A stretch of DNA of 64,000 nt, taken from Candidatus Pelearchaeum maunauluense. GTDB lineage: Archaea; Thermoproteota; Nitrososphaeria_A; Caldarchaeales; Caldarchaeaceae. The stretch is from the NCBI GenBank assembly GCA_030059675.1, contig JANVYQ010000001.1, positions 124,001 through 188,000 of the forward strand, read 5' to 3'. Both the position numbers and the translations under genes were made by a program. Positions within the stretch are counted from its first letter, which is position 1; the number at the start of each line of letters is the position of its first letter. This document shows, piece by piece, positions 6,366 through 46,800 of this stretch. The notes below the pieces were generated by a model. It saw only the letters and a list, made by a program, of their open reading frames with translations. It did no database searches and was not told where the DNA came from.

Positions 6366-6836
6366 GCTTGGCATCCACCTATAGCGCAGGTAGAGATACG
6401 CGTTCGTCGTCCATATGGTAGCTATGCCCAGAGCCATTAGCTGTAGAGGCGCGTTAAGCACCGTTGAGACGAAGGCGAGGCCTGCTCCCCCTGTCCCGGC
6501 GATTATTGAGAGGAGGTATAGCCATAGGCCGCAGCAGCCTACGTGTGTGAGGGGTAGGAATGAGACGAACGCGGAGATGAACGAGCCTGAAGCGCTGACC
6601 GATGTTGTTGTCTTGCTCTTTATGCGGCAGCGTTTAGCCGCTAGCTTGGCCTGTAGGTAGCCCTGCACCCAGAGCGAGCCTAGGAAAGCAGCTAGGAACG
6701 GCGCGTTTATCGCGAGTGTAAGCCTTATCGCCATGAGGGGAGGTAGGCTCGGAGTGGCCCCCATAACAACAGCTAGGTAGATTGCTAATCCAACCACGCT
6801 GATAGCAGAGCCGCGCAGCGCTCCCTCCCTATCCAT
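6321..6836 (-). CDS. Membrane protein coupled to the DUF3179 gene
   Basis: A 171-residue protein with about four to five hydrophobic segments, a basic loop (AAKRCRIKSKTTTS) and a HVGCCGLWLY motif around the third helix. I do not recognise the family. The start at ATG 6836 is chosen because it overlaps the TGA of the upstream DUF3179 reading frame in a TGATG junction, a hallmark of translational coupling; a longer frame opens upstream but would run through the neighbour. If the neighbour is not translated to its end because of its internal TAG, expression of this gene may suffer. Confidence 0.65.
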   Translation of the reverse strand: MDREGALRGSAISVVGLAIYLAVVMGATPSLPPLMAIRLTLAINAPFLAAFLGSLWVQGYLQAKLAAKRCRIKSKTTTSVSASGSFISAFVSFLPLTHVGCCGLWLYLLSIIAGTGGAGLAFVSTVLNAPLQLMALGIATIWTTNAYLYLRYRWMPSLGSPAEEIDQGSDD

Positions 6837-7987
6837 CAGCCACCACCGCCGCCGTAGAGGGGTATGTCTGGGAAGAAGACAGCCCAAGAAAACCAGAAGC
6901 CTGGGAAGATTACAATCTCCCTAAGCTTCCTCCCCTCCAAGGGGCCTGCTACGGCTTCCCCATAGACGTACCACTCGCTCCTAGTCTGCTTATCCACAAT
7001 CTTGCCGTCGCGCCACTCAAACTCCAGCACGGAGCCGTCAAGCCTCCGCTCATAAGCTCTCACAAGCCCCTCCATCGGGCTGAAGACAACAATAGCCCTG
7101 CCAGCAAACTCATCATTAACCACATGCTCCACATAGAGCGTCTCCGCGTGGTAAGCCTTCGCCTCTGGCCCTAGTATGATTCCATAGACCAGTGTCTTGG
7201 GATGAAGCCTATCGTCGCGCTTCTTGATGGGGAACCAGATGTCGTCGCTGGTGTAGTAGAGATACGCCGCATATGGGTCGTCGCCGTAGGGGCGGCTATA
7301 GCCAGTCTCAGGCTACAGCACCTCTGTATATGGATGAAGCTCGCGCCAGAGGCTCCACTTCATCACGTCAACCTGTATCATCTTCAGCTTAGTCCCAGCG
7401 AGGGGGCCGAGTATCGCTATCCCCCACTGCTGGCTCCAGAGCGTATCTGTCCTTCTGTCATACATGACGAGGTTGCTGTTGAAGAGCCTCCCCGACACGC
7501 CGAACTCCACAGGCTCGCCATCTATCACGCGGAGGAAGGCTATTGAGGTGAAGCAGAGGGGGCAGTAGGTAACCGCTATCGGGTCTCCAGCAACTATGTC
7601 ATTCACTATCTCGTGCCAAACGAGTATCTTATGCGGATACGCTCTCGCGACGCCCTTGTAGTAAAGCCCTATAACCATGTCATTAGGTCTAAGGAAGCTC
7701 TCAGCCTCCTCTGCGGAGACGAAGACAGGGCTGTCTATTGATGTGATACCATCCTTCGGCGGGCCTCCTGAGACTATCTCATCTGGAGGCACGACGTATT
7801 TCACTTCAAGACCGTTTGGGAGGCGTGTGGTGCTTACAGCTATGTAGCTGGGTGTTTCACTTACCTTAGCTTCGGCCTCGCCACGTATGGTGGAATCAAT
7901 ACCATTGTCAAGCGCTACGCGTGCGGCAGCCCCAGCCAACGCGGCGAGCGCGACAATCAAAACCACAACCACAAGCCTACTCGGCAT
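6836..7987 (-). pseudogene. DUF3179 protein gene interrupted by an in-frame TAG
   Basis: Read through one TAG (7313-7315, codon 225), this is a 382-residue DUF3179-family protein. Residues 1-22 form a signal peptide or anchor. The family-typical segments ARAYPHKILVWHEIVND, VTYCPLCFTS, FGVSGRLFNSNLVMYDR and TLWSQQWGIAILGPLAG lie before the stop. TGYSRPYGDDPY, a middle region and a second VVNDEFAG/VVF repeat lie after it, in the same frame and without any other lesion. The stop falls in HPYTEVL-stop-PETGY, where the family usually has Ser, so TCG to TAG is the simplest change. It is either a recent nonsense allele, a sequencing error or read-through. The family is probably extracytoplasmic; its biochemical role is unknown. 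Promoter candidate: CTTTAAG at about 8018-8026. Confidence 0.85.
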
Positions 7988-8158
7988 AGCTTTACAGCAA
8001 AGCCCAATATGCGTGCACGCTTAAAGCCATAGCCTTGAATCGTTCTGATAACATTATACAAACAGCGCTTATATACCATCCTACCCATAAGTGGTTCCCT
8101 CACTCATCCTAACTTTTACTGCTTGAGCCCTAGGGCTAGAAACTCTCTTTGGAATGAG

Positions 8159-8353
8159 CTAGTTGGACAGGCCTGCCAGGAGCATTTTCCCCAGCTCGGT
8201 TATGCTTATGCTTGAGCGGCCTCGGCGCTGTTTTTCCACGCGGACGAGCCCTAGCTGGAGCAGGCCCTTGCTGTCCTCTGAGCCGTTGATGTGGTAGCTT
8301 AGCAGCGGCTTGCCGTAGCCTGTGAGACTGCTCAGCTCGGTCAGGTCTTTCAC
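8159..8353 (-). CDS. Winged-helix domain, split from the CARF protein
   Basis: A 64-residue wHTH: helices LTELSSLTGYGKPLLSYHI, then a wing rich in basic residues (VRVEKQRRGRSSISIT) and a final helix ELGKMLLAGL. In Csa3-type regulators this domain is the C-terminal half of one polypeptide whose N-terminal half is a CARF domain; here it starts at a GTG whose last two bases are part of the TGA ending the CARF ORF (GTGA overlap, 8350-8353). It is either a separately translated, coupled DNA-binding subunit or the product of a one-base deletion. The HTH sequence itself is undamaged. Confidence 0.75.
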   Translation of the reverse strand: MKDLTELSSLTGYGKPLLSYHINGSEDSKGLLQLGLVRVEKQRRGRSSISITELGKMLLAGLSN

Positions 8354-8832
8354 GGAGCCCCCAGCGCTTTCAGGATATTCATCTTGGCTTCTGAGATTAT
8401 CTCGTTATAGCTCAGCCTGATTATGGGTAGGAGAACTGGGTGGTTGCCGTCTATCGCTATCGTCTTCAGCCCGTTGATGAACGACGCCGTGAGAGCGGCG
8501 CATCCAAGCTGCTTATCACCACTACTCGCATTAACGATTATCTCGTCAAACCTCCCCTTATTCTCCTCTACGATTTTCCTGAAGCGCATAATAGTATTGT
8601 ATAGGAGCGGCTTCTCAATCACATGGACTTCTGTCGCTATCTTGAGCGCCGTCGCGAGCTGGCCAGCGAATATATGCGCGTTCTCGCGCTCGCTCTCAAC
8701 GGTTACGAGTATGAGCTTGGTTATCGGGAGGTAGCGTATCCCCACTAATATGGCGTCCTTATCCTCCTCCCCGAATGTGGCTATGTGTAGAGTGTCGCGG
8801 GCTATGTCTTGCTTAACCTTCTCCTCAGGCAT
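8350..8832 (-). CDS. CARF-domain protein (Csa3-like sensor half)
   Basis: A 160-residue Rossmann-like CARF domain. The N-terminal strand (LHIATFGEEDKDAILVGIRYL), a central IIVNASSGDKQLGCAALTASFINGLKTIAI stretch with the NxSSGxK-type nucleotide-binding signature, and the length fit CARF regulators that bind cyclic oligoadenylates and often control CRISPR loci. The ATG at 8832 is preferred over the TTG at 8847, because the TATA-like box at 8863-8870 puts transcription start near 8841. The HTH follows in the next frame with a 4-base overlap. No CRISPR array or cas gene is present in this window. Confidence 0.75.
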   Translation of the reverse strand: MPEEKVKQDIARDTLHIATFGEEDKDAILVGIRYLPITKLILVTVESERENAHIFAGQLATALKIATEVHVIEKPLLYNTIMRFRKIVEENKGRFDEIIVNASSGDKQLGCAALTASFINGLKTIAIDGNHPVLLPIIRLSYNEIISEAKMNILKALGAP

Positions 8833-8888
8833 GTCTTGTTCTGACAAGATTACCGTCGGTAGGGTATATGAGCGTAGCCCTTAATGTT

Positions 8889-10466
8889 TTAGGCCGCCTC
8901 GACTATGCGTGTTATCGTCCCTATTCCTTTTGTCTTCCCTTCGCGGAATACGAATCTATCCCCCTCGCGTATATACCAGGGGCGGTACTTGAAGGTCATC
9001 TCAACTTTCCCCGTCTCTCCTGCCTTGAGGTATTCCTTGTCTAGGAGGGTTAGTTTTACGGTTGATGATATTGTGTGGCAGTGTAGCACGGGTTCGTAGC
9101 CGTCGCGTATCCTTGTTGGGTGTGTCAGCACCATTATATCTGCTTCAAACCTCCTCACCGCTCTGGGGTTTAGCGAGGAGTCGCAGAGTATCATGCCGCG
9201 GTGGAGCATATCATGCTTCACGCCCCTTACAGCTACGCCGATTATGTAGCCAGCCTCCGCTTCCGTGATTCTGGCGTAGTGCATCTCTATGCTACGCGCC
9301 TTCACCTGCCTGAACCTCCCCTTCTCGTCTGGGCCTATGAGGAGGTCGCTTCCAGCTATGAGCCTCCCCTGCTTCACCGAGCCCGAGACGACGCTGCCCA
9401 CACCCTCAACATTATACACCCTATCAACATACAGTAGGAAAGGCTCGTTTACTGGTTTCTGTCTGCTGGGTAGCGAGCCGAGGAGCGCGTATAGCTTCTC
9501 GTATCCCTCCAGCCTGGGCGCTGCTGTCCTGATTATGGGGACAACTACTGAGAGCTTGTCGCGGACAACGTCTATGTCTTCCTCTGATGTTATTCGGTAG
9601 GGGACTCTCCCAACCCTCTTGAGGAGGGATGATACGCTCTCCTCCACCTCATCAAGCCTCTCGCCGCTCACCTTATCCGCCTTCGTTATGCATACTATCA
9701 CTGGGAGCTTCATGGCCAGCATTATTCCCAGATGCTCCCGCGTAATGTGCGTCGGGCCGTCATCCGCCGCTACCACGAGGATTCCATAGTCTATGTCCTG
9801 TCCCAGGATTCCGCGTATTGTTGTCCTGAGCCAGGGCTCGTGGCCTACTGTGTCTATGAAGCTTACCAGCTTCTCCGCCTCCAGGGCGATTTTGCTCCGC
9901 TCATTCCTGTCTAGCGGGTTGGAGATTAGGCAGGGCTTGCTCTCCTTAAACCCGAGGAGGGCGAAGTGCACGTCTGCCGAGAGATTTCGCTCAATCTCGT
10001 GGGGCAGTGTGTCTAGGTAGAGCCACTTCTTACCATCATCGGGCTGTCCCGTCATGAGACAGGCGAGGAGCGTGGATTTTCCATGATTCACATGCCCCGC
10101 CACAGCTACTATGATATGATTCTGTATCGCGGGGGCGTAGCTGGAGATTATCACACGGCCGATTATCTTGGAATCCTCTTGGAAGCGCTCTACCCGCTCT
10201 ATAACAGCGCCGCACTCTGCCGCTACGGCGCGCAGAACGTTAAGGCTCTCCTCAAACTCTATCTCGGAAAGCCCCACAGCCTGGCCCTCGTCGCTCACAC
10301 CTAGTATATAGACGGCCTTCCCACCGCCCTGGGCTAGGCGATACTTCATCTGACTAGCCAGGTGCTGCTTCTTCTCATGCTTTAGATGTATGCTTGAGAT
10401 GAGACGCTCCTTAAACTCTATGTGCTTATCCTCTCCGTGTGGGAGGCTGAGCCTCAGCTTTAACAC
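8889..10466 (-). CDS. GTPBP1-like translational GTPase
   Basis: A 525-residue protein. An N-terminal domain of about 115 residues precedes an EF-Tu-type G domain: P-loop GHVNHGKSTL (about residues 127-136), G3 DTVGHEP and G4 TKAD in place of NKxD. EF-Tu-like beta-barrel domains follow, ending in the barrel-III-like YRPWYIREGDRFVFREG. This matches the archaeal COG5258 / eukaryotic GTPBP1 family, cytosolic GTPases linked to tRNA or mRNA metabolism. The start is GTG 10466; a strong TATA (CCTATATATC, about 10501-10510) places transcription start about 13 bases ahead. Length is normal for the family. Confidence 0.88.
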   Translation of the reverse strand: MLKLRLSLPHGEDKHIEFKERLISSIHLKHEKKQHLASQMKYRLAQGGGKAVYILGVSDEGQAVGLSEIEFEESLNVLRAVAAECGAVIERVERFQEDSKIIGRVIISSYAPAIQNHIIVAVAGHVNHGKSTLLACLMTGQPDDGKKWLYLDTLPHEIERNLSADVHFALLGFKESKPCLISNPLDRNERSKIALEAEKLVSFIDTVGHEPWLRTTIRGILGQDIDYGILVVAADDGPTHITREHLGIMLAMKLPVIVCITKADKVSGERLDEVEESVSSLLKRVGRVPYRITSEEDIDVVRDKLSVVVPIIRTAAPRLEGYEKLYALLGSLPSRQKPVNEPFLLYVDRVYNVEGVGSVVSGSVKQGRLIAGSDLLIGPDEKGRFRQVKARSIEMHYARITEAEAGYIIGVAVRGVKHDMLHRGMILCDSSLNPRAVRRFEADIMVLTHPTRIRDGYEPVLHCHTISSTVKLTLLDKEYLKAGETGKVEMTFKYRPWYIREGDRFVFREGKTKGIGTITRIVEAA

Positions 10467-10512
10467 CTACGGGCCTTTCGCATCAGGCAGCTCTCCACAC
10501 AGATATATAGGC

Positions 10513-10746
10513 TTAGCTTGAGACCACTATGAGCGAGGTTATTGAGGTTACGTTGTAGAGCCTCTTGACGCGGCGGTTTACAACCTCCTTGAGCTTCTCC
10601 ATGCTGTCTGCCTCAACCTTGACGACCGCGTCATACACGCCAAAGACGCGGCGCGCCTCCCTAACTTCGGGGATTGAGGCGAGCTCCTTCAATACCTCAT
10701 CCTCGTGGCCTGGCTTGACATTAAGCAGAAGGAATGCGAGCGCCAT
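10513..10746 (-). CDS. Stand-alone Lrp/AsnC ligand-binding (RAM) domain
   Basis: A 77-residue protein that consists only of the alpha/beta sandwich found at the C-terminus of Lrp/AsnC regulators: LAFLLLNVKPGHEDEVLKEL, ARRVFGVYDAVVKVEA, then a helix and the TSLIVV strand. It lacks the HTH, as in archaeal single-domain small-molecule-binding proteins that modulate full-length Lrp partners. A TATA-like TTTATATATC (about 10771-10780, minus strand) gives a nearly leaderless transcript from ATG 10746. The ligand is unknown; amino acids are usual for the family. Confidence 0.88.
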   Translation of the reverse strand: MALAFLLLNVKPGHEDEVLKELASIPEVREARRVFGVYDAVVKVEADSMEKLKEVVNRRVKRLYNVTSITSLIVVSS

Positions 10747-10945
10747 TTGTATTGACGTTATGATAGCCGATATATAAACGGGAATCTAATCCCTTTCGGC
10801 CAGGGCGGCAAAGCCTTACTATATTTTAATAATAAAGCGATGTTTTAAGAAAGAAAACTTTTACTTCGCTAACGTGGTAGGTTTAAAGCCCTTTTTCAGC
10901 ATCCTCATTAGCAGCCATAGTACATGAAGAGGGTTTTGGGAGGCT

Positions 10946-12595
10946 ATGGCGTCGCTGGGGGAGAGGCTTAGGCAGCTTGGGGTGGTGCGGTCTTCAACCC
11001 ACTCCCCGCCCTACATGATGCACAAGTTCTGGGCGCGCCGCCCCTGGCTGGTGTTCCGCAGGCTAATCACGACATTCACCCGCGAGGGGGATATTATCCT
11101 AGACCCGTTCGCGGGTGGTGGTGTTACGTTGGTTGAGGGGCTCATAACGCGCCGCCGCGTTGTGGCCGCTGATATTAACCCCCTCGCGGTGTTCATCATG
11201 AGGCATGAAGCCAAGCCCCTTGACCTGTCTTCCTTCTCCTCAGCCCTCGCGTGGCTGGAGAGGGAGCTGGGCAACACGATGCGGGACATCTATTCCGCCT
11301 CATGCCCCAGATGCGGCGCTAGGGCAGAGGTGGAGTGGGGCGAATACTCAAGCCAAGACGACAGGCTACTCACACTCAAGCTGGAATGCCCCCTCTGCGG
11401 GTATAGGGGAGTGAAAGAACCATCCGAGAATGACTTAAGCCAAAAAACCACACCCACCAGCTATAGGGTGGTTAGCATACCTCTAGGAGAGAAGACGCGC
11501 GACCTGCTTAGACGCGGCTATAGATACTTCCACGAGCTATTCACACAGCGCAACCTTGCTGCGCTCTTACTTCTCCGCGAAGCTATTGAGCGATGCCCAA
11601 CCGATGAGGAAACTAGAAGCTTCCTCCTATTTGCCTTCAGCAGCACGCTGAAGTGGGCTAGTAAGATGAGCCATAGGAGGGGCGGGATAATAGAGGGCTG
11701 GGCCATGCATGCCTACTGGATATACCCTAGGTATCTGGAGATTAATGTGTGGCGTCAGTTCCTTAACAGGGCTAGAGCTATTGCGAGGGGTAAGAGATAC
11801 ACCAACGAGCATATAGGGGGCTATGCTGTTGAGGCGGGTAGCTTCGGCCAGCTACTCAAGGGAGAGGCCAGCTTTATGGTTCTCAACATGGATGCGCGTA
11901 ATCTACCCATACCCGACCACAGCGTTGATGCCGTGATAACAGACCCGCCATATGGCGGGAACGTGAATTACGCAGAGCTCTCCGACTACTTCCTCTGGTG
12001 GGAAGGCGAGCTATCTCCAAAGAATGGAGAGGTCATAGTTAATGAGACCCGCGGCCTCTCGCTGATGGACTACTCAGAAGGGCTACGCGAGGTCTTCGCC
12101 GAGTGCTGGAGAGTGCTCAAGGACGGAGCACCACTCATCTCAACATTCAACAGCAAGGACATGCGCATAGTAGCTGCGTTCACCTCGGCCCTACGCGGAG
12201 CGGGATTCAGATACATAACAGTATCACAGCAACCCTATCTCAAGGTCTATGAAACAACATTCCACGCCATGCAGGTTGACGCCATGCCCTTTGACTTCAT
12301 CTTCCTCTACCAGAAGGATGTGCGTGGAGAGTTTGACGATGCTAGCCCCCGTGATACCGACGTTATCATTGAGTGGCTCTACGGCGAGCTGGCGTGGTGT
12401 AAGCGGAGAAAGCTGACGGAGCGCGATTACAGGATGCGCACATACCCACGCCTAATCCCTGCGATAAGCTGTCTTGATGCGCGCGATGCTATAGCGCTTG
12501 CCGAGGATTATGAGAGGATGATAAAGGAGGAGCGGGGCTACTTCACCAGCGTTAGGCGTAGGGTGGTGGAGAGGCGGAGAAAGTCCTCCACGTAG
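10946..12595 (+). CDS. Orphan DNA methylase (COG1743/DUF1156-like)
   Basis: A 549-residue amino-methyltransferase. The N-terminus STHSPPYMMHKFWARRPW is typical of the DUF1156/COG1743 group. SAM-binding motif I DPFAGGGVTLVEG comes first (about residue 50), a zinc-ribbon-like pair (CPRC about residue 117, CPLC about 148) follows, and the catalytic DPPYGGNVNYAELSDYF (about residue 329) lies C-terminal. It would methylate exocyclic amines of A or C in DNA; the target is unknown. No restriction endonuclease or DISARM/BREX-type gene is next to it. The ATG at 10946 is preceded by a GGGAGG-like ribosome site, and a TATA-like TTTAAAG sits at about 10889-10899. Confidence 0.82.
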   Translation: MASLGERLRQLGVVRSSTHSPPYMMHKFWARRPWLVFRRLITTFTREGDIILDPFAGGGVTLVEGLITRRRVVAADINPLAVFIMRHEAKPLDLSSFSSALAWLERELGNTMRDIYSASCPRCGARAEVEWGEYSSQDDRLLTLKLECPLCGYRGVKEPSENDLSQKTTPTSYRVVSIPLGEKTRDLLRRGYRYFHELFTQRNLAALLLLREAIERCPTDEETRSFLLFAFSSTLKWASKMSHRRGGIIEGWAMHAYWIYPRYLEINVWRQFLNRARAIARGKRYTNEHIGGYAVEAGSFGQLLKGEASFMVLNMDARNLPIPDHSVDAVITDPPYGGNVNYAELSDYFLWWEGELSPKNGEVIVNETRGLSLMDYSEGLREVFAECWRVLKDGAPLISTFNSKDMRIVAAFTSALRGAGFRYITVSQQPYLKVYETTFHAMQVDAMPFDFIFLYQKDVRGEFDDASPRDTDVIIEWLYGELAWCKRRKLTERDYRMRTYPRLIPAISCLDARDAIALAEDYERMIKEERGYFTSVRRRVVERRRKSST

Positions 12596-12646
12596 CCCCA
12601 GACGCGGTAATGATAATATTATGGCCGTAGCCTGCTGGGGGCTGTC

Positions 12647-14080
12647 ATGATTGAGCGCGCAGAGATGCAGGAGATAGCCAAACGCTACCGCGAGCCTGTG
12701 GAGCTAATACTGGGCTCACACTCAGCGCTTGACGCGCGTTCAGGAGCGCGAAACTACGGGCTACGCTCAATAATATACACGACACGCGGCAGGGCGATAA
12801 TCTACCTCCAGAACATAATCGTGGGCAAGCCGCGTGAGGAGCTGGAAGACATCCCAGAAATATGCAGGCGCGACGTAGCGGTATGCGAAGACCCCGCAGA
12901 CCTAAAGCGCAGGAAGGAATGGAGCCTCGCAATCCTAGTTCTGGACAGGTATGACGAGATTCTCAAATACGTTGACGAGCTGGTTGAGCTGGAGTGCGTG
13001 CAAGTCCCCAACAGGGCGTTCTCCGTCTACGTTGGGGGAGATGAGCGATGCAGCCTGATAGAGGAGAGATTCGCCGTCCCCATACTGGGCTCTAGGAAGC
13101 TCCTAAAAGTGGAGAACAGGGGGGAGATTGAGCGGGATTACTACTGGTTTGCCGAGAAGGCTGGGATACCCACGCCCAAGAAGTATAGCTTCGAGGTCTC
13201 TGGCAGGGGTATTAGGTTCCGCGAGCCCATGGATGAGCCTATGCTGCTGAAGGCCGAACACGCCAAGAGGGAGTTTGAGCGCGTCTTCATCTTCGCGGCG
13301 GACTCTGAAGACCTTGAGGAGAAGGTGGAGAAGGAGGTTGAGGCAGGCAACCTGGGCAGGGAGCAGCTTGAGAACGCGCGGGTTGAGCAGATAGTCCTAG
13401 GCCCCCACGCCAACTTCAACTTCTTCTACTCACCGCTCAACGCAGGCGAGGAATGGGGAGACGTTGACGACGCACTAGCAAGGCTACACGGCCTAACGAT
13501 AGAACAAGCAAGGAAATGCCTAGCCAACGAGCTCCTCTCAATAGACGAGAGGCGCGAGAGCATACTAGACGGCCTAACGCGGATGCCGCTCTCGGTGAGG
13601 AGGAAGATAGAAGAGAAGACCATACCCTCGTTTGAGGTAACGCTCCACTCCATGGTTAGTATGCGCGAGTCCCTGCTTAAGGACGTGCTCAAGTGCGCTG
13701 ACGCGCTACTTCTAACGCTCGCGGAGCATGAGGAGCCTGGGATAATAGGGGCATGGTGCTTGCAGACCATAATAACATGGGATAAGGCAAGCAAATACGG
13801 CTACACACCCACAACCAAGCTAATATACACAACAACAGGCGAAGCAGCAAGGCCAGAGGACTACGGACTATACGACGCACCCACACAAGAAGTGGTGATG
13901 CACATAACAGTAACCCAAGACGTGGCACTACGCCACGGCGGCGGAACAAACGTTCACATGGGAATAGGAGCACAATACGCCAATGCCAGATACCAACACC
14001 AAATGAGCACAGGCGATAGGATAGCATTAGAGATCAAGAGGGCCATGAAATATAAAAGACTTGACGAATTAGTTACTTGA
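12647..14080 (+). CDS. purP: PurP-family formate-dependent FAICAR synthetase, long form
   Basis: A 477-residue ATP-grasp enzyme of the PurP family, which in archaea formylates AICAR with formate and ATP in purine synthesis. Family marks are the N-terminal LGSHSALDARSGARNYGLRS, the VLGPHANFNFFYSPL segment, the acidic EEWGDVDDA stretch and the C-terminal RHGGGTNVHMGIGAQY...STGDRIALEI. PurP is usually about 340-370 residues. The excess appears to lie in the middle (roughly residues 225-240 and 275-340) and could mark a paralogue with another substrate. A TATA-like GATAATATTA (about 12609) is 30-35 bases before ATG 12647. The last 12 bases overlap a methyltransferase remnant on the opposite strand. 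Confidence 0.82.
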   Translation: MIERAEMQEIAKRYREPVELILGSHSALDARSGARNYGLRSIIYTTRGRAIIYLQNIIVGKPREELEDIPEICRRDVAVCEDPADLKRRKEWSLAILVLDRYDEILKYVDELVELECVQVPNRAFSVYVGGDERCSLIEERFAVPILGSRKLLKVENRGEIERDYYWFAEKAGIPTPKKYSFEVSGRGIRFREPMDEPMLLKAEHAKREFERVFIFAADSEDLEEKVEKEVEAGNLGREQLENARVEQIVLGPHANFNFFYSPLNAGEEWGDVDDALARLHGLTIEQARKCLANELLSIDERRESILDGLTRMPLSVRRKIEEKTIPSFEVTLHSMVSMRESLLKDVLKCADALLLTLAEHEEPGIIGAWCLQTIITWDKASKYGYTPTTKLIYTTTGEAARPEDYGLYDAPTQEVVMHITVTQDVALRHGGGTNVHMGIGAQYANARYQHQMSTGDRIALEIKRAMKYKRLDELVT

Positions 14081-14257: not shown

Positions 14258-14274
14258 AGCACTATAGAAGGTGC

Positions 14275-14622: not shown

Positions 14623-14624
14623 TT

Positions 14625-14966: not shown

Positions 14967-14981
14967 CGACGCATCACCTCT

Positions 14982-16202: not shown

Positions 16203-16227
16203 GGGGCTAAAGCACCACTAAGCTAGC

Positions 16228-17706: not shown

Positions 17707-17740
17707 CGCATTAACAAAGGCGCTCTAGTATTTTGACTGC

Positions 17741-18305: not shown

Positions 18306-18995
18306 CAGCACCATACAACGAGAGCGCAGCTATGGGCGTGTAGCCCAGCAAGACCGCGAGCCACATACCATTAGTAGCAGCTTCGGCGGCTCTAACCGAG
18401 GAGAGTATTAGGAACGCGGCAACCGCTGATGTTGATACCCTCTTAATACCGCCGCCCACTCCTTTATAGGCTGCGTATATCATCGTAGCCACCAGAAGCC
18501 ATCCCAGGAAGTTTGTTATTGGTACGCCGTAGAATTCTCCAGGCGGTAGCCACATCCAGAGGCGGCCTGAGAGTATGGGGTCTAGTATCACGTCCAGCAG
18601 GGTTAGCGTTGCCGCTGAGGCTGGTATCCATAGTCTTGGCCCAGCTACTGCGTTGCCTACCTGCATCGCGAGGTATGCTAGGGAAGACCAGAGGAGTGGA
18701 CTGCTATGGGAACTCCGCCGACCATAGCGTATCCCAGAGCGCCCTCCACATACTCGTACCTACCGAATGGGAAGCCTGTATGAACTCCCAAAACCTCCAT
18801 CGCGAGCCCTATCGCTATTGAGAACGCTATGTAGAGCGCAGCCTTTCTTAGGTGTGTTGCGGCGTGGATGAATACGATTAGCAGGAAGAGGTCTCCCACG
18901 ATTATGTGTAGCGGCATCATATCAGATGGGATTACCGAGCCAGCTAGAGTTAGGGCTATCAGGAGGGTGTCAAGAATCTTGTTCCAGCGACTCAT
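18271..18995 (-). pseudogene. CruF-type carotenoid biosynthesis gene with a one-base frameshift
   Basis: Two overlapping reading frames together encode one carotenoid biosynthesis protein (DUF422/CruF), an integral membrane hydratase acting on acyclic carotenoid ends. The first part ends after GLAMEVLGVHTGFPFGRYEY and GYAMVGGVPIAV. The rest of the expected protein (PLLWSSLAYLAMQVGNAV, then DVILDPILSGRLWMW and YGVPITNFLGWLL) continues in another frame. Adding a single C at about 18697-18702 (a CC read as CCC) restores one continuous frame of about 241 residues with no other lesion. Start GTG/ATG near 18995; the first 26 bases overlap the VKOR gene. Genuine inactivation or a homopolymer error. 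Confidence 0.82.
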
Positions 18996-23281: not shown

Positions 23282-23288
23282 TGATTTG

Positions 23289-26122: not shown

Positions 26123-26196
26123 TGTAAATTTTATTAATCCTGCATATTATCAGCAAAATTTAATTAGACTTAAACCCGTATAGCGTAGATTAGGGT

Positions 26197-26442
26197 TTGA
26201 AGGAAGACCTGAGACTCAAAATTGACCCTAGGGGGCGACTAAGCATACCGTCGGACATAAGGGATGAGGTAGGTGATGAAGTAATACTTAGAAGAACACC
26301 CGAAGGCTTCCTACTCATACCAGCTAAACAGCATAACTTCTTGGAAGAGTTTCGCCGCATTATCTCATCCGAGCCGCAAAGAACGGGAAAACCTGAAAAC
26401 TGGGACCCGAAGAAGATGAAATCAGTATGGTTAGGGGACTAA
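26197..26442 (+). CDS. vapB: AbrB/VapB-type antitoxin
   Basis: An 81-residue protein with an N-terminal SpoVT/AbrB-like DNA-binding swapped hairpin (LRLKIDPRGRLSIPSDIRDEV, EVILRRTPEGFLLIPA) and a C-terminal toxin-binding tail rich in basic and aromatic residues (about 50-81). It starts at TTG 26197 followed by AAG; a TATA-like CTTAAAC (about 26169) suggests a leaderless transcript. The stop is 6 bases before the ATG of the VapC gene. It would neutralise the PIN toxin and repress its own promoter. Confidence 0.85.
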   Translation: MKEDLRLKIDPRGRLSIPSDIRDEVGDEVILRRTPEGFLLIPAKQHNFLEEFRRIISSEPQRTGKPENWDPKKMKSVWLGD

Positions 26443-26448: not shown

Positions 26449-26874
26449 ATGGTTATTGGACTTGATACAAATGTCTTATGCTACGCGCTTGACCCCGCAT
26501 ATCCAGAGCATACCAAACTTAAGGGACTTCTTCTAAAATTATCTCCTGATAATATGCTTGCACTAAACCCAACAATCATACAAGAAGCCTATCATGTTCT
26601 AGTCTTTGGACAAAAATAGACTCCTAATGAAGCTATGAGAAAGCTGAGGATGTTACTAAAGCATCCTTACATAGTATTTTACGCTCAAAACAAGAAGATA
26701 TCAATGACGGCCCTGACCCTAGCAGCGCATTATGGTTTAGGAGGAAGAGACGCGCTTATTATCGCTAACTTTCTAACCAACAAAATACCCATAATGTATA
26801 CTCATGACCAAGAATTGCTAAAATTAGAAAAGCTTTCGTGGATAAATTTGAAATATCATTTAAAGACCCAATAA
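26449..26874 (+). pseudogene. vapC: VapC PIN-domain toxin gene with an in-frame TAG
   Basis: Reading through TAG 26617-26619 (codon 57) gives a complete PIN domain of 141 codons. Asp in GLDTNVL (residue 6), Glu in IIQEAYHVL, the stop within VFGQK-stop-TPNEAMRKL, Asp in GGRDALIIANF and Asp in THDQELLK are the four metal ligands expected for an RNA-cleaving toxin; two lie after the stop. Family members commonly have Trp at this spot, so TGG to TAG is the simplest change. Start ATG 26449 (or GTG 26443). Loss of a toxin is tolerated, so this can be a true null allele. Confidence 0.85.
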
Positions 26875-32723: not shown

Positions 32724-33513
32724 TTGAGCAGGATAAGGCCCCTCAACCTACCATTATCCATATATCTCCCCAATAAGAAACTAGCCAGCCTCGCGGTAGA
32801 GTTGAGGAATGTTCCAGGGGCTTTGATGGAAGACCTCCGGTTATCCATCGTTTTGGTATTAATATTGTTGGCCTGCTCTCCAACACGGCTACGGCAAACA
32901 GCCCTACGACGAGTGTCGTCATACACCTAGACGTATCAGGCGTTGAGGAGGAGAAGCTTCAGGAGATGCTTGAGGAGATAAGGCGGCAGGAGAAGACGTT
33001 GTCAGCGTACATATTTGATACGGGCATACAGTCATTCACAGCAGACCAATACCATAACAGGGTTCTCAGCTTTAATGCGCGTGTGGTTTTGATGAGCGAG
33101 GCCTCGCTTAGGGGGCTTCTCAATAGTTTATACAACACCTTCGGCGACGCGGCCGCGGCTGCGTTCCTATACCACATGGGAGTCGGGGAGACCACGCCAT
33201 AGCGCGGTATGAGAAGCAGTTCTTCAAAGACCCCCGCGTGTGCATCCGCGTCATAGAGCATAACGCAGTGGCATTCGGCTACGCGCATAGGCTAACGATA
33301 AAGGAGGTGGGCGTAACCATGTTTGAGGTAATCTTTGAAGGCTTGTTTGAGTGTGAGTATCTAGCTGGTAAGAAGGGGCCGACATCCAACTGGATACGCG
33401 GGATGGCTGCTGGGTTTATTGAAGAACTCTTCGGCGGCAAGTGGAGCGCCACGGAGGTTAAGTGCGTCAACGCGGGCGATGGTGTTTGCATGTTTAGGGT
33501 AGTCCGCCAGTAG
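32724..33513 (+). pseudogene. ACT-V4R domain gene with two one-base frameshifts
   Basis: Three frames join into one protein. An ACT domain begins KLASLAVELRNVPGALM and continues after a shift as VIHRFGINIVGLLS and SVVIHLDVSGVEEEKL. A linker with IRRQEKTLSAYIFDTG follows, then a V4R (4-vinyl-reductase) domain: LRGLLNSLYNTFGDAAAAAF, a second shift near GVGE, then HAIARYEKQFF, EGLFECEYL, WIRGMAAGFIEELFGGKW and CVNAGDGVCMFRVV. Adding one C at about 32835-32838 and one at about 33191-33196 gives about 264 residues without other lesions. Such proteins are small-molecule sensors. Start TTG 32724 followed by AGC. The ACT part could have sensed amino acids for the dehydratase upstream. Confidence 0.82.
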
Positions 33514-36612: not shown

Positions 36613-36615
36613 CCC

Positions 36616-38276: not shown

Positions 38277-38286
38277 AACAAAATAT

Positions 38287-38841: not shown

Positions 38842-38955
38842 CGGCTAAACCTCTACATCATGAGCCCCTGAGCCATAATTTTAACCAGATACAAGCCCTC
38901 CCCATTGAAACACTATTAAGCTCCCGCGTGCGTGGGGCTTTAGCGTGGATGGCGC

Positions 38956-40245
38956 TTGAGGCTTATCGCAGACCTACAGCTCCATAGCCGTTTTTCTGGC
39001 GCGACCTCTGATAAGATGCGCGTAGGCGAGATTAGCTATTATGCGCAGCTTAAGGGGCTTAACCTCCTCGGAACTGGCGACGCTCTCCACCCCACATGGC
39101 TTGCGGAGCTTGAGGATAGCCTAGAAGAGCTGGAGGGCTCTGGCCTCTACGTCTCGCGGAGCGGCGAGTATCGTGGAATCTTCTTCATAGTCCAGACGGA
39201 GGTTGCTACAGTCCACGAGCTTGGTGGAAAAGCTAGGAGGATACACCACGTAATCCTGATGCCCAGTTTTGAGATAGCCCACCAGCTCCGCGACCTGCTT
39301 GAGCCTTATGGAAACATAGACGCAGACGGCAGGCCTGTGCTGGAGATAACGCCAGCCGAGCTTGTGGAGATAGTCATGGCAACCTCACGCGATAACTTGG
39401 TCTTCCCAGCCCACGCGTGGACGCCCTGGTGGAGCATCTTCGGAGCCTTCAGCGGCGTTGACAGGGTTGAGGAATGCTACGAGGACCAGACGAAGCACAT
39501 ACACGCGATAGAGACTGGGCTTAGCAGCGACCCGCCCATGAACTATCGCTGCAGCTGGCTGGATAGGTATGTATTGCTGAGTAGCTCAGACGCTCATAGC
39601 CCCTATCCGTATAGAATAGGCCGCGAGGCTGTTGTGTTTGAGCTTCGGAGACCATCCTACCGCGAGCTGGTAGACGCTGTTAGGAGACGTGATAAGAGCA
39701 GGATAAAGATGACGGTTGAGGTTCCGCCTGAGTATGGGAAGTATCACTGGTCTGGCCACCGTAGGTGCGGCTTCGGGCCTGTAAGCCCCTCTGAGGCCAA
39801 GAAACTGGGATACAAATGCCCTGTCTGCGGGAGGAAGCTCACCAAGGGTGTTGACGACAGGGTTGAGGAGCTGGCCGACCGAGAGCCTGGCTACACACCA
39901 CCCGACGCCATCGGCTTCATACGCCTCCTACCCCTACAGGAGCTCATCGCGGTCTCCCTCGGCATGGGGCCTGAGGCAGAGGCGAAGCTGATGAGCCAGA
40001 AGGTCTGGAAACAATACCTAAAGCTCATAGAAGCTTTTGGCAACGAGTTCAACATACTCCTAGACGCGTCTATAGAGTCCATCAGGGAGCAAGCTGGGCC
40101 TAGGCTTGCGGAGCTTATAGCGGCGATGCGTGAGGATAGGCTGAGGTTCACGCCTGGCTATGATGGTGTTTATGGCCGTTTGATGCTTGGTGAGGCGAGG
40201 AGCGAGGGAGCGAAGGCAGGCGGCACGCTTGACCGCTACTACTAG
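38956..40245 (+). CDS. Endonuclease Q (PHP-family repair nuclease)
   Basis: A 429-residue PHP-domain protein matching archaeal EndoQ/TIGR00375: metal-site ADLQLHSRFSGATSDKM, LGTGDALHPTWL, the RRIHHVILMPSFE stretch, FPAHAWTPWWSIFG, ETGLSSDPPMNYRCSWLDRY and SSSDAHSPYPYRIGREA. A zinc element follows (HRRCGFGP about residue 272, CPVCGRKL about 289) and then helical C-terminal domains with GYTPPDAIGFIRLLPLQE. EndoQ cuts DNA 5' of deaminated bases (uracil, hypoxanthine) and abasic sites. The start TTG 38956 is followed by AGG. The AlkA-type glycosylase at 61883 is another repair gene in the window. Confidence 0.9.
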   Translation: MRLIADLQLHSRFSGATSDKMRVGEISYYAQLKGLNLLGTGDALHPTWLAELEDSLEELEGSGLYVSRSGEYRGIFFIVQTEVATVHELGGKARRIHHVILMPSFEIAHQLRDLLEPYGNIDADGRPVLEITPAELVEIVMATSRDNLVFPAHAWTPWWSIFGAFSGVDRVEECYEDQTKHIHAIETGLSSDPPMNYRCSWLDRYVLLSSSDAHSPYPYRIGREAVVFELRRPSYRELVDAVRRRDKSRIKMTVEVPPEYGKYHWSGHRRCGFGPVSPSEAKKLGYKCPVCGRKLTKGVDDRVEELADREPGYTPPDAIGFIRLLPLQELIAVSLGMGPEAEAKLMSQKVWKQYLKLIEAFGNEFNILLDASIESIREQAGPRLAELIAAMREDRLRFTPGYDGVYGRLMLGEARSEGAKAGGTLDRYY

Positions 40246-41423
40246 CGCGCCCGCCTTATGAGCTGAGCCAACACAGCACCAGCCAATGAGATTATGGCGG
40301 CCAACTGGAAAGCCGCTGGGAAGCCCAGAGCGTCTATTACATATCCGCCGAGCGGCGCGCCTACAGCCTGGCCCGCGCTGAAGAATATTGTTACGAAGCC
40401 CCCTGCGGCTGAGCGTAGGCGCTGCTCAACCGTATCAGCCGCTGCAACCACTGCCAGCGTCGGCACACTCCACGCTGCTATCCCGAAGATGGCCGCCGAA
40501 AAAGTGGCGAGCTGGGAAGTTCCAGCGGTTATCGCCAGATACGCGATAGCAAGCGTCGTGTATGCCAGGCTTATCGCAGCCCTGCGTCCAATCTTGTCAG
40601 ACGCAAAGCCCCAGATGAAGCCGCTTGAAATGCTCAGCACGCCAGCCATGAAGAATACCCTACCAGCAGTCCCCACCTCCATGCCTATGCCGCTCACCAT
40701 GTAAGCCACCAAGTATGTGATGTAGATTATGTATGACAAACCGTAGGCGAGGTATGTGAGTCCTATAATCCATAGGTGGGGTGAGAAGATGACATCACCC
40801 CAGGCGAGAACTGGTGTATGTGCTCGTTCTCCTCTGGCTGTTGTATCTGGCCTGTCTCTCACCAGCGTTGCCACGAGGAGGGCTATCGCTATGAGCGCCG
40901 CTCCCATGTATATCCATGCATAGCACCATCCCTCTGGCTGCTATGCATGTATTATCGCTGGCACGGCTATTCCAGCCGCGGCGAAGCCAGAGCCTATCCC
41001 AGCGGCCACAATACCAGTAGCCCTTCCCCTCAAGTGTTGTGGGAACCAGATTGATGGGAGAACAACCGCTGGCAGGTAGAGGCCTCCATTTCCAAGCCCA
41101 GTGAAGAGCCGTGTGATTAACGCTGAGAGTGTGTCGGAAACTCTTGACGTTGCTATCATGCTGGCACCCATGAGGAAGGCCGCGGCTGTCATGACAATCC
41201 TTGAGCCGTATCTACTCGCCAAGAAGCCTCCTATCGTGGCAAGCGTCATGTAGCCGAGGAAGTTGCCGAACTCAATAATCCCCATGCTGGTGTAGTCAAC
41301 GCCCAGCGAGGCGCGCATGTCTTCCAACAGTAGCGAGTAGGCGAACCTGCCGAAGCCGTGAGCGCCCAAGACGCTTACAAACGCTACCCCAACGATAACC
41401 CAGCCGTAGTAGATTCTACCCAA
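40242..41423 (-). pseudogene. MFS permease gene with an in-frame TAG
   Basis: One continuous frame of about 393 codons is broken only by TAG 40941-40943 (codon 161). The first half carries TM1-5 of an OFA/oxalate-formate-type MFS protein (YGWVIVGVAFVSVLGAHG, FLASRYGSR, WFPQHLRGRATGIVAAG). After the stop QPEGWCYAWIYMGAALIAI continues into the second half with WGFASDKIGRRAAISL and SAGQAVGAPLGGYVIDALG. The lesion is in the loop before TM6. Substrate unknown, perhaps a carboxylate. The 3' end overlaps EndoQ by 4 bases. Confidence 0.85.
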
Positions 41424-41471
41424 CCAGCATCACCGCGGCCATGAAGGAGAGGAGGGACGCCTCCCCTCTCT

Positions 41472-42293
41472 TTAGAGCCTGTAACCGTATTTCTCGGCTA
41501 CGCGCCTGGCTTCCTCATCCCAGCCCAGCTCAAACAGCCCATCAACGATGTAGCTGAGATAATCATCTCTTGGTCTCTGTCCCTCTACCTTGTAAAGCTC
41601 GGTAGCGACGTAAACATCCGCGTAGTATTGCTGGCCATCCCTGCCATGGACGCGGACAATCCTGCGGGTGTAGTTTTCTGGATAGCCCTCATAGCGGTCT
41701 AGTGTTTTCAGCTCTCTTTGGGTTATTGTGTAGAGAGCGCCATATACCCGCGAGCCCGTGTTTGGCTCTATGTTCGCGCATATTCCGCTGCCGCATCTCT
41801 TGTTGAAGACGAGCTCGTATCCCTCTAGTATTGCTGGTATCCTCCTGGCTGGTTTAACGTTCCTCTCAGCAAGCCTACGCGACGCCATGTTGGAGCCGTA
41901 TGCGAAGTAGTTTAAGCATCCTTTCCCTCCAGCGTAGTCTCCGTCTTCTACTGCTCTAGCGCTCTCCACCTGCTTTCCCGTGTATTCGTAGAACTGCGCA
42001 GACTCGCGGAAGCGTTTTTCCTCATCAAAATAGACATCCACGGCCACGCGTCTGTAGAGGCCGCCTTCAACGTCTTCAACCCTGTCCAGCTCCTCCAGCA
42101 GACTCTCGCTTATCTCATACACCTCTCCCCAGACCCGTCCATCGCCCATAACCGCGCCTGGGTATTCTCCCAGGTCTATGAGCCTATATCCCTCTATGAA
42201 ACCCCTACCCACGAGCCTAGAGCCCTTAAGCCTACCATGCAAGCTGAACCCACACATCAGCAAACCATAGACGAAGAGGAGAAGACTGCGCAT
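41472..42293 (-). CDS. Tandem gamma-glutamylcyclotransferase-like protein
   Basis: A 273-residue protein made of two GGCT/AIG2 folds. Domain 1 (about 1-118) begins LLLFVYGLLMCGF, runs through YPGAVMGDGRVWGEVYEI, and has DRVEDVEGGLYRR. Domain 2 (about 125-273) begins LNYFAYGSNMASRRLAER and has VYGALYTITQRELKTLDRYEGYPENYTRR, with YGSN forming the 5-oxoproline cradle. GGCT enzymes release 5-oxoproline from gamma-glutamyl compounds. The YGSN and catalytic Glu pattern is better conserved in domain 2. The double arrangement is unusual; single-domain forms of about 120-190 residues are common. Confidence 0.8.
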   Translation of the reverse strand: MRSLLLFVYGLLMCGFSLHGRLKGSRLVGRGFIEGYRLIDLGEYPGAVMGDGRVWGEVYEISESLLEELDRVEDVEGGLYRRVAVDVYFDEEKRFRESAQFYEYTGKQVESARAVEDGDYAGGKGCLNYFAYGSNMASRRLAERNVKPARRIPAILEGYELVFNKRCGSGICANIEPNTGSRVYGALYTITQRELKTLDRYEGYPENYTRRIVRVHGRDGQQYYADVYVATELYKVEGQRPRDDYLSYIVDGLFELGWDEEARRVAEKYGYRL

Positions 42294-42369
42294 AGGGAGT
42301 ATGGTGGAGCGGCTTCCTACTTATCGTTTATCAAGCCCTTTTATATAGCGCTACTACGCCGATTATACC

Positions 42370-42645
42370 ATGCCACACCATATAGAGCTCTTCGTGGGCG
42401 GCTGCCCCCTATGCGAGCGTGTGAAGAATATGATTGAGGTCGGTAAATGCGTTGGCTGCGTGTTGGAGGTTCATGACTTGAGCAGGGATTATGAGAGGGT
42501 TGGTGATAAGGTGCGCGAGTATAGGATACGCTGCGTGCCCACGATAGTTATAGATGGCAGGATTAAGGTTGAGGGGCTTCCAGAGTTCAGCTTCGTGTGC
42601 AGCGATGAGTTTTACCAGTGGCTTGAGAGCGAGTATAAGACGTAG
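42370..42645 (+). CDS. Glutaredoxin/thioredoxin-like small redox protein
   Basis: A 91-residue thioredoxin-fold protein with active site GGCPLCERVKNMI (CPLC, residues 12-15), a second Cys pair (VGKCVGCVLEV) after the first helix, and the cis-Pro strand RIRCVPTIVIDGRIKVEG. The extra cysteines at positions about 27, 30 and 58 suggest metal or multi-disulfide chemistry, as in mercury- or alkylmercury-type glutaredoxin-like proteins, but no mer gene is near. Start ATG 42370. Ribokinase follows after 29 bases. Confidence 0.82.
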   Translation: MPHHIELFVGGCPLCERVKNMIEVGKCVGCVLEVHDLSRDYERVGDKVREYRIRCVPTIVIDGRIKVEGLPEFSFVCSDEFYQWLESEYKT

Positions 42646-42674
42646 CACACGCCTCCCGCGTGTGGTGTATATCC

Positions 42675-43595
42675 TTGAGCATAAACATAGCTGTTCTAGG
42701 CGCCACGCATGTGGATTATACCCTAGTTGTTGAGCGTCTGCCGCGCGTGGGCGAGACGGTGATAGGGGGAGAGCTGAAGTTCTCGCTAGGCGGTAAGGGC
42801 GCTAATCAGGCTGTAGCAGCCTCACGTCTGGGGGCTGAGACCTTCTTCATAAGCCGTGTCGGCGAAGACGCTCTAGGTGGAGTGGCCATAGAAGGACTTA
42901 GGAAGAACAACGTCCATACCGAGTATGTCTATGCAGACCCAGACCACCCGACTGGGATCGCGCTAATCTTCGTGGATAGGGAGGGTAGGAATATGATAGG
43001 CGTGGCGCCAGGCGTGGATGAGCATATAACACCCAACGACGTTGATAATGCGCGGGAAGCCCTGAGCAGGGCGGCGGTCTTCCTGACCCAGCTTGAGATA
43101 CCCGTAGCGACTGTAGAGTATGCGGTGCGCGAGGTTAAGAGGATGGGGAAGACTGTCATACTGAACCCAGCGCCAGCGAAGCCTCTGCCAGAAAGCCTGC
43201 TCTCATGCGTTGACATACTAACGCCAAACGAGGTTGAGCTGGCCATGCTCACAAACGAGCAGCCGAAAACGCAGAATGGAGTCATAAGCGCCGCGCGCAA
43301 GCTAATAGACAACGGCGTGGGAGCTGTGGTAGTAACGCTGGGCGCCGAGGGGGCGCTACTAGTTACGGAGGAGGCGGAGCTCCACATAAGGGGTGTTAGG
43401 GTGAGCGCGGTAGATACCACAGGGGCAGGCGACGCGTTCAACGCTGCCATGGCTGTTATGCTCGCACGCGGCCGCGAGCTGGACGAGGCTGTCCGCTACG
43501 CAAACTACGCAGGAGCGCTGGCAACAACAAAGCTGGGCGCACAAGAGGCGCTACCCACAATAGAGGAATTGGAACGCTTCCTGGCGAAACGATAA
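42675..43595 (+). CDS. rbsK: Ribokinase (PfkB family)
   Basis: A 306-residue sugar kinase: NIAVLGATHVDYTLVVERLPRVGETV, FSLGGKGANQAVAASRLGAET with signature 1, IAVDREGRN-type FVDREGRNMIGVAPG, LTPNEVEL, VVTLGAEGALLV, and the catalytic signature 2 DTTGAGDAFNAAMAV with the general base Asp. ATP-dependent phosphorylation of ribose or of a nucleoside/deoxyribose analogue is expected. The start TTG 42675 is followed by AGC and gives a normal N-terminus; the frame opens at 42660. The 6-phosphogluconate dehydrogenase follows after 28 bases, so a pentose-metabolism operon is likely. Confidence 0.9.
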   Translation: MSINIAVLGATHVDYTLVVERLPRVGETVIGGELKFSLGGKGANQAVAASRLGAETFFISRVGEDALGGVAIEGLRKNNVHTEYVYADPDHPTGIALIFVDREGRNMIGVAPGVDEHITPNDVDNAREALSRAAVFLTQLEIPVATVEYAVREVKRMGKTVILNPAPAKPLPESLLSCVDILTPNEVELAMLTNEQPKTQNGVISAARKLIDNGVGAVVVTLGAEGALLVTEEAELHIRGVRVSAVDTTGAGDAFNAAMAVMLARGRELDEAVRYANYAGALATTKLGAQEALPTIEELERFLAKR

Positions 43596-43623
43596 ATTAT
43601 TAAAGAGCAGGGTAGATTGTTGG

Positions 43624-45033
43624 ATGAGCTACGTTGGTCTTGTTGGTTTGGGTGTTATGGGCGAGAACCTTGCTCTTAACATAGCTTCGCGTGGCTTTCA
43701 GGTTTCTGTTTATAATAGGACGCGGGAGAAGACTGAGCGTTTTGCCCAGCGTTTGCAGCGTAGTTCTGCTATTGTTCCGACCTACTCTCTTGAGGAGTTT
43801 GTCTCTTCTCTTGAGAGGCCGCGTAGGGTTATCTTGATGGTTAAGGCTGGCAGGCCTGTTGATGATATTCTTGAAGGGCTTGCTCCCCTGCTTGGTGAGT
43901 GTGATGTTGTCTTTGACTGTGGTAATTCTTTCTTTAGGGATACTGAGCGCCGCCAGGAGTGGCTGGCGCGGCGCGGCATAACGTTCATGGGTGTTGGTGT
44001 GAGCGGTGGTGAGGAGGGGGCGCTTAAGGGTCCTTCGGTCATGGTTGGCGGCGCTCCCTCTGGGTTTGAGGAGTCGCGCGCTATGTGGGAGGCGATAGCT
44101 GCGCGTGTTGATAACGAGCCATGCGCTGGCTATATGGGGCTACGTGGTGCTGGCCATTTTGTCAAGATGACGCACAACGGGATAGAGTATGCCCTTCTAC
44201 AGCTCATAGCGGAGAGCTACGACATCATGACGCGCGGCTTGGGTATGAGTGTTGAAGACGCTATGCAGGTCTTCCGCGAGTGGTGTGATAGCGAGCTGGG
44301 CTCATACCTGCTGGAGATTACCGTAGATGCTCTCTCTGTCGTTGATGGGGAGACTGGTAAGCCTCTTGTGGAGCTTGTGATGGATAGGGCGGAGCAGAAG
44401 GGGACTGGTAAATGGACTTCCCAGACAGCTATGGATGTCGGTGTGCCTGTTCCGAATATTGATGCTGCTGTATCTGCTCGGATAATCTCATCGCTGAAGG
44501 AGCAGCGTGTTAATGCAGCGCGGCTCTATGGTGGTGTGAAGACCAGGATAGAAGGGGGAAGGGAGGAGGTGTTGGAGCTTCTCCGCCCAGCTTATAGCCT
44601 AGCCGTCATAACATCATACGCCCAGGGCTTGGCGCTCATATCAGAGGCCTCGCGCGAATACGGCTATGGAACCAATATGCTGGATGTGGCCAAGGTTTGG
44701 CGCGGGGGCTGCATAATAAGGGCTAGGCTGCTCTACACGATAATCGCAGCTTATGAGCGCACGCCTGGGCTGGTGAATATATTGTTTGATGATGAGATTG
44801 CGAGCTTGGCGCGGGAGTTTGAGCCTAGCCTACGCGAGTTGTTGCGTAGGGTTAAGACAGCTCATATACCGACGCCAGTGATGGATGCTGCGTTGAACTA
44901 TATCACCTCACTACGCCGCGAGAGGCTTCCAGCGTATATAATCCAGGCGCTCCGCGACAGGTTTGGAGCACACGAGTATGAGAGGATAGATAAGCCTGGG
45001 AGATTCCACTCTAGCTGGAGGCCAGGAAGCTAG
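43624..45033 (+). CDS. gnd: 6-phosphogluconate dehydrogenase, decarboxylating
   Basis: A 469-residue full-length (bacterial/eukaryotic type) enzyme. Rossmann VGLVGLGVMGENLALNIASRGF, VYNRTREKTE, VMVKAGRPVDDIL, GVGVSGGEEGALKGPSVM, the catalytic GHFVKMTHNGIEYALLQLI with Lys and Asn, GTGKWTSQTAMDVGVPVPNI, and C-terminal DRFGAHEYERIDKPGRFHSSW. It produces ribulose 5-phosphate, CO2 and NADPH. The oxidative pentose pathway is rare in archaea, so acquisition by transfer is possible. The first 500 bases use more T-ending codons than neighbouring genes. No glucose-6-phosphate dehydrogenase was seen. Confidence 0.93.
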   Translation: MSYVGLVGLGVMGENLALNIASRGFQVSVYNRTREKTERFAQRLQRSSAIVPTYSLEEFVSSLERPRRVILMVKAGRPVDDILEGLAPLLGECDVVFDCGNSFFRDTERRQEWLARRGITFMGVGVSGGEEGALKGPSVMVGGAPSGFEESRAMWEAIAARVDNEPCAGYMGLRGAGHFVKMTHNGIEYALLQLIAESYDIMTRGLGMSVEDAMQVFREWCDSELGSYLLEITVDALSVVDGETGKPLVELVMDRAEQKGTGKWTSQTAMDVGVPVPNIDAAVSARIISSLKEQRVNAARLYGGVKTRIEGGREEVLELLRPAYSLAVITSYAQGLALISEASREYGYGTNMLDVAKVWRGGCIIRARLLYTIIAAYERTPGLVNILFDDEIASLAREFEPSLRELLRRVKTAHIPTPVMDAALNYITSLRRERLPAYIIQALRDRFGAHEYERIDKPGRFHSSWRPGS

Positions 45034-45036
45034 GCT

Positions 45037-45360
45037 TTATGCTGGCCTGGATTCGGGTGCCATAACCTCGCACACAGCTTCCAAGAGGCTGTCATAATCG
45101 GCGGATACTCCCATGCGCGCGTTCATCTCCCTTATAATCGCCTTCTCAATATACTTCGCCCCAGTGCCGAACATGCTGTAGAGAGCGTTGACGAAATCCT
45201 TTAGGCGCTTGGGTATTTCTTCGCGCTTAATCCCCCAGCGCCTCTCCAAGTGCCAGAAGATTACCCGCTTGGTCTGCTGCCCCAGCGAGTCCAGCCCCCT
45301 GTCAACGCATTCAAGGAGCCGCGCCTCAACCTCATTATTATTTGGCATCCTAGCATTCAC
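45037..45360 (-). CDS. Probable NitrOD5-domain signalling output protein
   Basis: A 107-residue protein whose central part (LLECVDRGLDSLGQQTKRV, FWHLERRWGIKREEIPKRL, VNALYSMFGTGAKYIEKAII) resembles the NitrOD5 domain found alone or behind sensor domains in Thaumarchaeota. That match is from memory, not a search. It lies 3 bases downstream of the KaiC/GvpD-like ATPase on the same strand, so the two should be co-translated and probably interact. A short acidic tail ends the protein. Helical, with no Cys or metal motif. Confidence 0.6.
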   Translation of the reverse strand: MNARMPNNNEVEARLLECVDRGLDSLGQQTKRVIFWHLERRWGIKREEIPKRLKDFVNALYSMFGTGAKYIEKAIIREMNARMGVSADYDSLLEAVCEVMAPESRPA

Positions 45361-45363
45361 CGC

Positions 45364-46800
45364 CTAGACTATGGGTGTGAGGAAGACACGTGGATAGCCT
45401 TGGCTGAAGTCGTATTCAACGTGGTGTATCAGTGAGGGCGGCTTTACGGAGTAGAGAATGAGAGAGCCGTCCAGCTCGTTCATCTTGATATGCGCCGTAG
45501 CCATATCTGATACGGCGTCCTTGCTCTGGGTTGAGTGCTTCACCGCAAGCATAAGAATATCGCCATAATATCTTACGCGCTGGATGGATGTTATTATGTT
45601 TCTTATGAGCCACTGCTGGCCGTGTATAGCCTCCATAACATCTATCCCGAGGAATATGAAGCACGGCTGGTTGCTCCTTTTCTTGAGACTCTGAGCCTCT
45701 CTCCAGAGCCTCTCAAAGGTCCTCGTTATGGAGTGGCTGTCAAGTCTGAGGAATGTGGGGTCGCGGTGATACTGCTCGTAGTGCGCTACCCTGAGATGGC
45801 TCTTCAGCGTCTCTTTTGGTATGTGTAGTCCTATTGACTCCCTGACCATCGTGGGAGTTATTCCCCCAGCGGGTAGGATTAGCGCGCACCCGCGATTGAG
45901 GATGAAGTTGCACGCCATCATGGACAGGAGGGGCAAGTGCCAGTCAGGGCCCACGTTTCCACCCATCTCAAGTAATATGACGGAGCCGCGCCGCATGCCG
46001 CTTCCGAGGAACATGTCAAGGTCTGCGCTTGATGTGGAGAATAGCTCGCCATGCTCCACATGCTTGAAGGGCTGAGGCTCCATCTCACTCGGCAGCTGTG
46101 TAACCACGCGGCCTAGTAGTGTGAAGCGGCCTCCGTAGAGTGTGAATATGCTTGTGCGCTGGGTTATGGCCGAGCCGCGTAGCTTCTTCCACTCAATCCG
46201 CCTTATTCGCCTTCCCTCCATGACCTCGTCATGCAGCACGACTACAGCATCAACCAGATAGTCAGTCGTTGTTAGATGCGGCTCCTCGCTGACAAACACC
46301 ACCCTCGCGCCGCTGGTCTCTACAGTAGTAGCTAGAGCCTTCTCCATCTTAAGACGCTCCACCACATCCAGCTCCTTCGCAAAAGCATCCCAAGAGTCTA
46401 GAACAATCAACGGCTCCTTAATCCTCTCCGTAACAGCTAGGATGAACTACACTATGTCGGTTGATGTCCCCATCCTCACATCTTCAAACCTTATTCCAGC
46501 GGCGTCCGACCTTGCTTCTAGAACCTTGCCGCTCTCTATGAGCTGCGCCATCCCAGGATCATGCTCCAACAGCTTCTCGGCTGATACGCGTGTTGAGACG
46601 TAAACGCCCCTGCCGTGAAGCTTTAGAAGCTCTAGGGCGAGCATCGTCTTGCCGACGCCTGGCTCGCCCTTGATGAGAATAGACTTTACAGCTGGGCTTA
46701 GTAGAGAGTCCAGCCTCATCAGGTAGCCACCTCGCCTCGCGGTGGTCTGGCGCTCCCCTACGGCTGGCTCTCCAGAAAGTAGAGAATGCTGAGGTTCCAC
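45364..46800 (-). pseudogene. KaiC/GvpD-like tandem RecA-fold ATPase gene with an in-frame TAG
   Basis: A frame of 478 codons broken only by TAG 46447-46449 (codon 118). Domain 1 has Walker A IKGEPGVGKTMLALELL (about residue 43), then the stop in TSTDIV-stop-FILAVTERI, then Walker B PLIVLDSWDAF. Domain 2 (about residues 255-478) has KaiC-like order (SADLDMFLGSGMRRGSVILLEMGG) but its P-loop lacks GKT. This architecture resembles GvpD/KaiC-like archaeal regulators. Start GTG 46800; ACTATATAATATAC (46821-46834) gives a leaderless transcript. If the stop is real, only a 117-residue P-loop fragment or a TTG-initiated C-terminal piece (46410) is made. Confidence 0.8.

Follow-up and report, generated by a model that had tools for sequence, protein, structure and literature searches.

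In-Frame TAG Codons in Four Accessory Genes of Candidatus Pelearchaeum maunauluense Are Probably Recent Nonsense Mutations

Introduction

Recently formed pseudogenes of prokaryotes carry single lesions in recognizable accessory genes, which are often linked and are unbroken in a sister genome; such pseudogenes can build up when a lineage has recently gone through a bottleneck or a change in its ecology (PMC9336565). In-frame TAG codons within conserved genes are also found in the methanogens and some bacteria that encode pyrrolysine. In addition, another report proposes that conserved in-frame stops are read through in prokaryotes, with low dN/dS around the stop (PMC7918605).

Here we describe four genes of Candidatus Pelearchaeum maunauluense, a hot-vent archaeon, each of which is interrupted by one in-frame TAG. 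The genes lie in a stretch of 64,000 bases (C2:124001-188000), hereafter the window, of 146_bin.21, a Caldarchaeales MAG assembled with metaSPAdes from Mauna Ulu fumarole rock (PMC10547907). They resemble the recent pseudogenes in all of the above features; nothing essential differs, and the four lesions first reported happen all to be TAG. With the TAG-containing genes of pyrrolysine encoders they share the in-frame codon itself, but in this genome PylS, PylD, and MtmB stayed under the cut-off, a CUA tRNA was not seen, genes end in TAG more often than in any other stop, and conservation of the sites is lacking. Low dN/dS is shared with the proposed read-through cases; however, the stops of P. 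maunauluense are not conserved among relatives, and its frameshifted genes look alike.

Materials and Methods

The P. maunauluense MAG comprises 21 contigs and 1,786,704 bases and is ~94% complete. The sister genome (G001, WAQC01) is a Ca. Pelearchaeum MAG of the same genus, with ~90% DNA identity across aligned genes. Genes intact in one genome yet interrupted in the other were sought in both directions, using ~623 kb of P. maunauluense, which is ~35% of the MAG, and 666 kb from the sister, with ~86,000 aligned codons. Half of a further genome (G003) served as the yardstick for gene conservation. The automatic lesion lists hold some artefacts, namely alternative starts and stops read beyond a frameshift, and 23 genes were retained as lesioned after inspection and curation by the analyst. 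An intrinsic coding-potential scan was too insensitive on its own and mostly flagged adjacent gene pairs. The expected shares of the three stops among neutral nonsense mutations were computed from codon usage and the substitution spectrum at four-fold sites.

Results

All four in-frame TAGs of the original prediction were present, each of them amid a long open frame of a recognizable family that was otherwise uninterrupted. They were observed in a DUF3179 gene (PF11376; 6836..7987, minus strand; TAG at 7313-7315, codon 225 of 383), a VapC-like PIN-domain toxin gene (PF01850; 26443..26874, plus strand; TAG at 26617-26619), an MFS permease gene (PF07690/PF06779; 40243..41423, minus strand; TAG at 40941-40943, codon 161 of 394), and a GvpD/KaiC-like ATPase gene (PF07088/PF06745; 45364..46800, minus strand; TAG at 46447-46449, codon 118 of 478). 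The comparison with a sister genome that had been suggested gave a sense codon at three of the four sites: TCA (Ser) in the DUF3179 gene, TAC (Tyr) in the MFS gene, and GAG (Glu) in the GvpD/KaiC-like gene, all of which are uninterrupted in the sister, so that three of the four TAG lesions are lacking there. Ser at the DUF3179 site was also found in two more distant relatives, and this stop is thus derived. The vapC site yielded no such residue, being itself broken in the sister, where the gene carries an internal deletion in place of the TAG of P. maunauluense. The antitoxin gene directly upstream (PF04014, MazE/AbrB type; 26194..26442, plus strand) is intact in both genomes. Given these two separate lesions beside an intact antitoxin gene, the toxin gene is decaying in both species. 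The natural end of the MFS gene, TAGTAGTAG, consists of three tandem stops (40237-40245, minus strand) and is the same in the sister.

The original prediction had found TAG interruptions only, which holds for the in-frame stops detected in the window but overlooked four genes in it that are disrupted in frame. Compared with the sister, an HFX_2341-like gene (PF19810; 8162..8847, minus strand) has lost 10 bases near 8362-8371 and a carotenoid biosynthesis gene (CruF-like, PF04240; 18286..18995, minus strand) a single base near 18699, either of which shifts the frame, and a V4R-domain gene (PF02830; 32724..33510, plus strand) lacks one base near 32838 and another near 33180. A short-chain dehydrogenase gene (PF13561; 55811..56377, minus strand) shows a local disruption of the frame near 55.97-56.05 kb, and its N-terminal part is divergent or missing.

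Across the compared regions, the automatic counts gave internal stops in 22 genes of P. maunauluense versus 4 in the sister, and frameshifts in 14 versus 2; despite the artefacts in the lists, this excess of broken genes is large. The curated lesions were frameshifts, mostly 1-base deletions, together with ten TAG, two TGA, and one TAA. An equal number of TGA and TAA interruptions had been named as an outcome that would speak against a TAG signal; such interruptions do exist in kind, but in numbers they do not equal TAG. Some genes contain several lesions, for example the polysaccharide genes of L114, and two of the TAGs sit in genes that are frameshifted as well. An apparent interruption of NadE (L117) was discarded, the site being upstream of the likely real start.

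Several lesioned loci outside the window were also observed. A second GvpD/KaiC-like gene (L107:636-2036; G000:C9:190636-192036, minus strand) has two in-frame TAGs, both of which are GAG in the intact sister copy. Two adjacent genes, encoding the Fe-S and ethylbenzene-dehydrogenase-type subunits (L109:2836-5072; G000:C9 ~232.8-235.1 kb), each contain a TGG>TGA change, which accounts for both TGAs of the curated tally, and the Fe-S subunit also has a Cys>Trp replacement in a cluster motif. Two further runs of broken neighbors were seen: in one, liv transporter genes stand together with genes for two acyl-CoA ligases (L111:1002-10547), and the other holds genes for a glycosyltransferase, a nucleotidyltransferase, and a UDP-glucose dehydrogenase (L114:7882-11400); all of these are intact in the sister.

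That the occurrence of TAG alone is meaningful had been implied, and this was not supported. Among random nonsense mutations in this genome, 54% (0.544) are expected to create TAG, 22% TGA, and 23% TAA, with GAG>TAG being the commonest single route (17%). At that TAG share, the probability that four of four stops are TAG is 0.087, which is not significant. The curated tally of 10 TAGs among 13 stops (P=0.086), or 11 among 14 counting vapC (P=0.058), is a mild lean and no evidence. TAG probably predominates because the one-step routes from the codons of this genome favor it, GAG>TAG and CAG>TAG foremost, with chance in addition. An oxidative G:C>T:A signature, considered in view of three GAG>TAG changes in the two GvpD/KaiC-like genes, was rejected, since such changes are expected to make up 39% of nonsense mutations (P=0.16 for at least 6 of 10). 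Loss of HhH-GPD repair glycosylases was not found either, the three matches having no internal stops here or in the sister.

Old pseudogenes are expected to show raised dN/dS, which is not required of recent ones. The median dN/dS against the sister was 0.077 over 289 gene pairs, compared with 0.138 for the DUF3179 gene, 0.118 for the MFS gene, and 0.072 for the GvpD/KaiC-like gene. Values in interrupted genes were mostly ordinary, and frameshifted genes behaved alike; therefore, either the lesions arose recently or they are errors. Only 1 of 21 lesioned genes was conserved in the half of G003 that was used, versus 93 of 268 (P=0.003), and the lesioned families that were identified are all accessory in type. 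Moreover, lesioned genes adjoin one another, forming six adjacent pairs where 1.3 are expected by chance (P=0.002).

Discussion

Among the explanations of the original prediction were, rightly, nonsense mutation by chance, which is the best explanation here, and sequencing error, which is a rival. If wrong bases and 1-base deletions had entered the MAG consensus, the genes would be intact in the organism; the low dN/dS of the interrupted genes, the many single-base deletions, and a lesion count far above that of the sister agree with this, and the excess of broken genes could also reflect a poorer consensus. Nevertheless, the lesions fall in dispensable and linked genes, avoiding conserved ones, which argues against random sequencing error. 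The repeated lesions within single genes and the position of the window on a 371-kb contig in a high-quality metaSPAdes bin (PMC10547907) point the same way, and we thus regard error as unlikely, with the reads expected to support the lesion bases.

Amber suppression, by which TAG would be read as an amino acid and the four genes would remain functional, is consistent with the ordinary dN/dS downstream of the stops, the slight TAG excess of the curated tally, and the proposed prokaryotic read-through of conserved in-frame stops (PMC7918605). Low dN/dS does not point to suppression, however, because frameshifted genes show it equally, and two TAGs lie in genes that are also frameshifted. The suggested search for pyl genes or a CUA tRNA detected neither: over the genome, the best PylS match reached 36.1 bits against a cut-off of 178 and the best PylD match 18.5 against 150, and MtmB had no match, so that pyrrolysine was rejected. 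Likewise, a suppressor among the assembled tRNAs was discarded: in a genome ~94% complete, none of the 40 tRNA matches showed a CUA anticodon when decoded or aligned, a few intron-bearing ones having been only partly read. Among 592 predicted genes over ~623 kb, more end normally in TAG (219, 37%) than in TAA (206) or TGA (167), which bears out the earlier doubt about wholesale recoding. Back-up stops showed no surplus behind TAG genome-wide (23% versus 24-27%), and thus gave no sign of leaky termination at TAG. Recoding to one amino acid was rejected as well, since the sister residues differ (Ser, Tyr, Glu); the TAG sites are not conserved there. Amber suppression, which had been among the explanations offered, is accordingly disfavored and appears very improbable. 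We give equally little credence to a suppressor that is encoded in the ~6% of the genome left unassembled, or is an atypical tRNA, and that partly reads TAG in functional genes under selection.

Taken together, we consider it likely that each of the four TAGs arose recently, and specifically in the P. maunauluense lineage, by ordinary nonsense mutation of a dispensable accessory gene. The TAG-interrupted genes would belong to a wider broken set that includes frameshifts, TGA, and TAA; translation would stop at TAG through normal release-factor recognition, each gene is most likely inactivated, and the products would be non-functional. As TAG is the likeliest random stop and many genes are broken otherwise, the pattern suggests ordinary recent loss with no second meaning of TAG, and the mostly ordinary dN/dS would require all lesions to be recent on the P. 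maunauluense branch. For three TAG genes the lesion is lacking in the orthologue of the close relative, vapC being the exception as it is broken in both, and the lesions are of varied kinds (frameshifts, TGA, TAA, TAG) in dispensable genes, with conserved genes avoided.

These results remove a tempting signal of recoding: four TAGs out of four seem striking, but where GAG, CAG, and AAG codons abound, over half of all nonsense mutations are expected to be TAG. The lopsided load of recently broken accessory genes relative to the sister deserves modest attention when metabolism is predicted from the P. maunauluense type genome.
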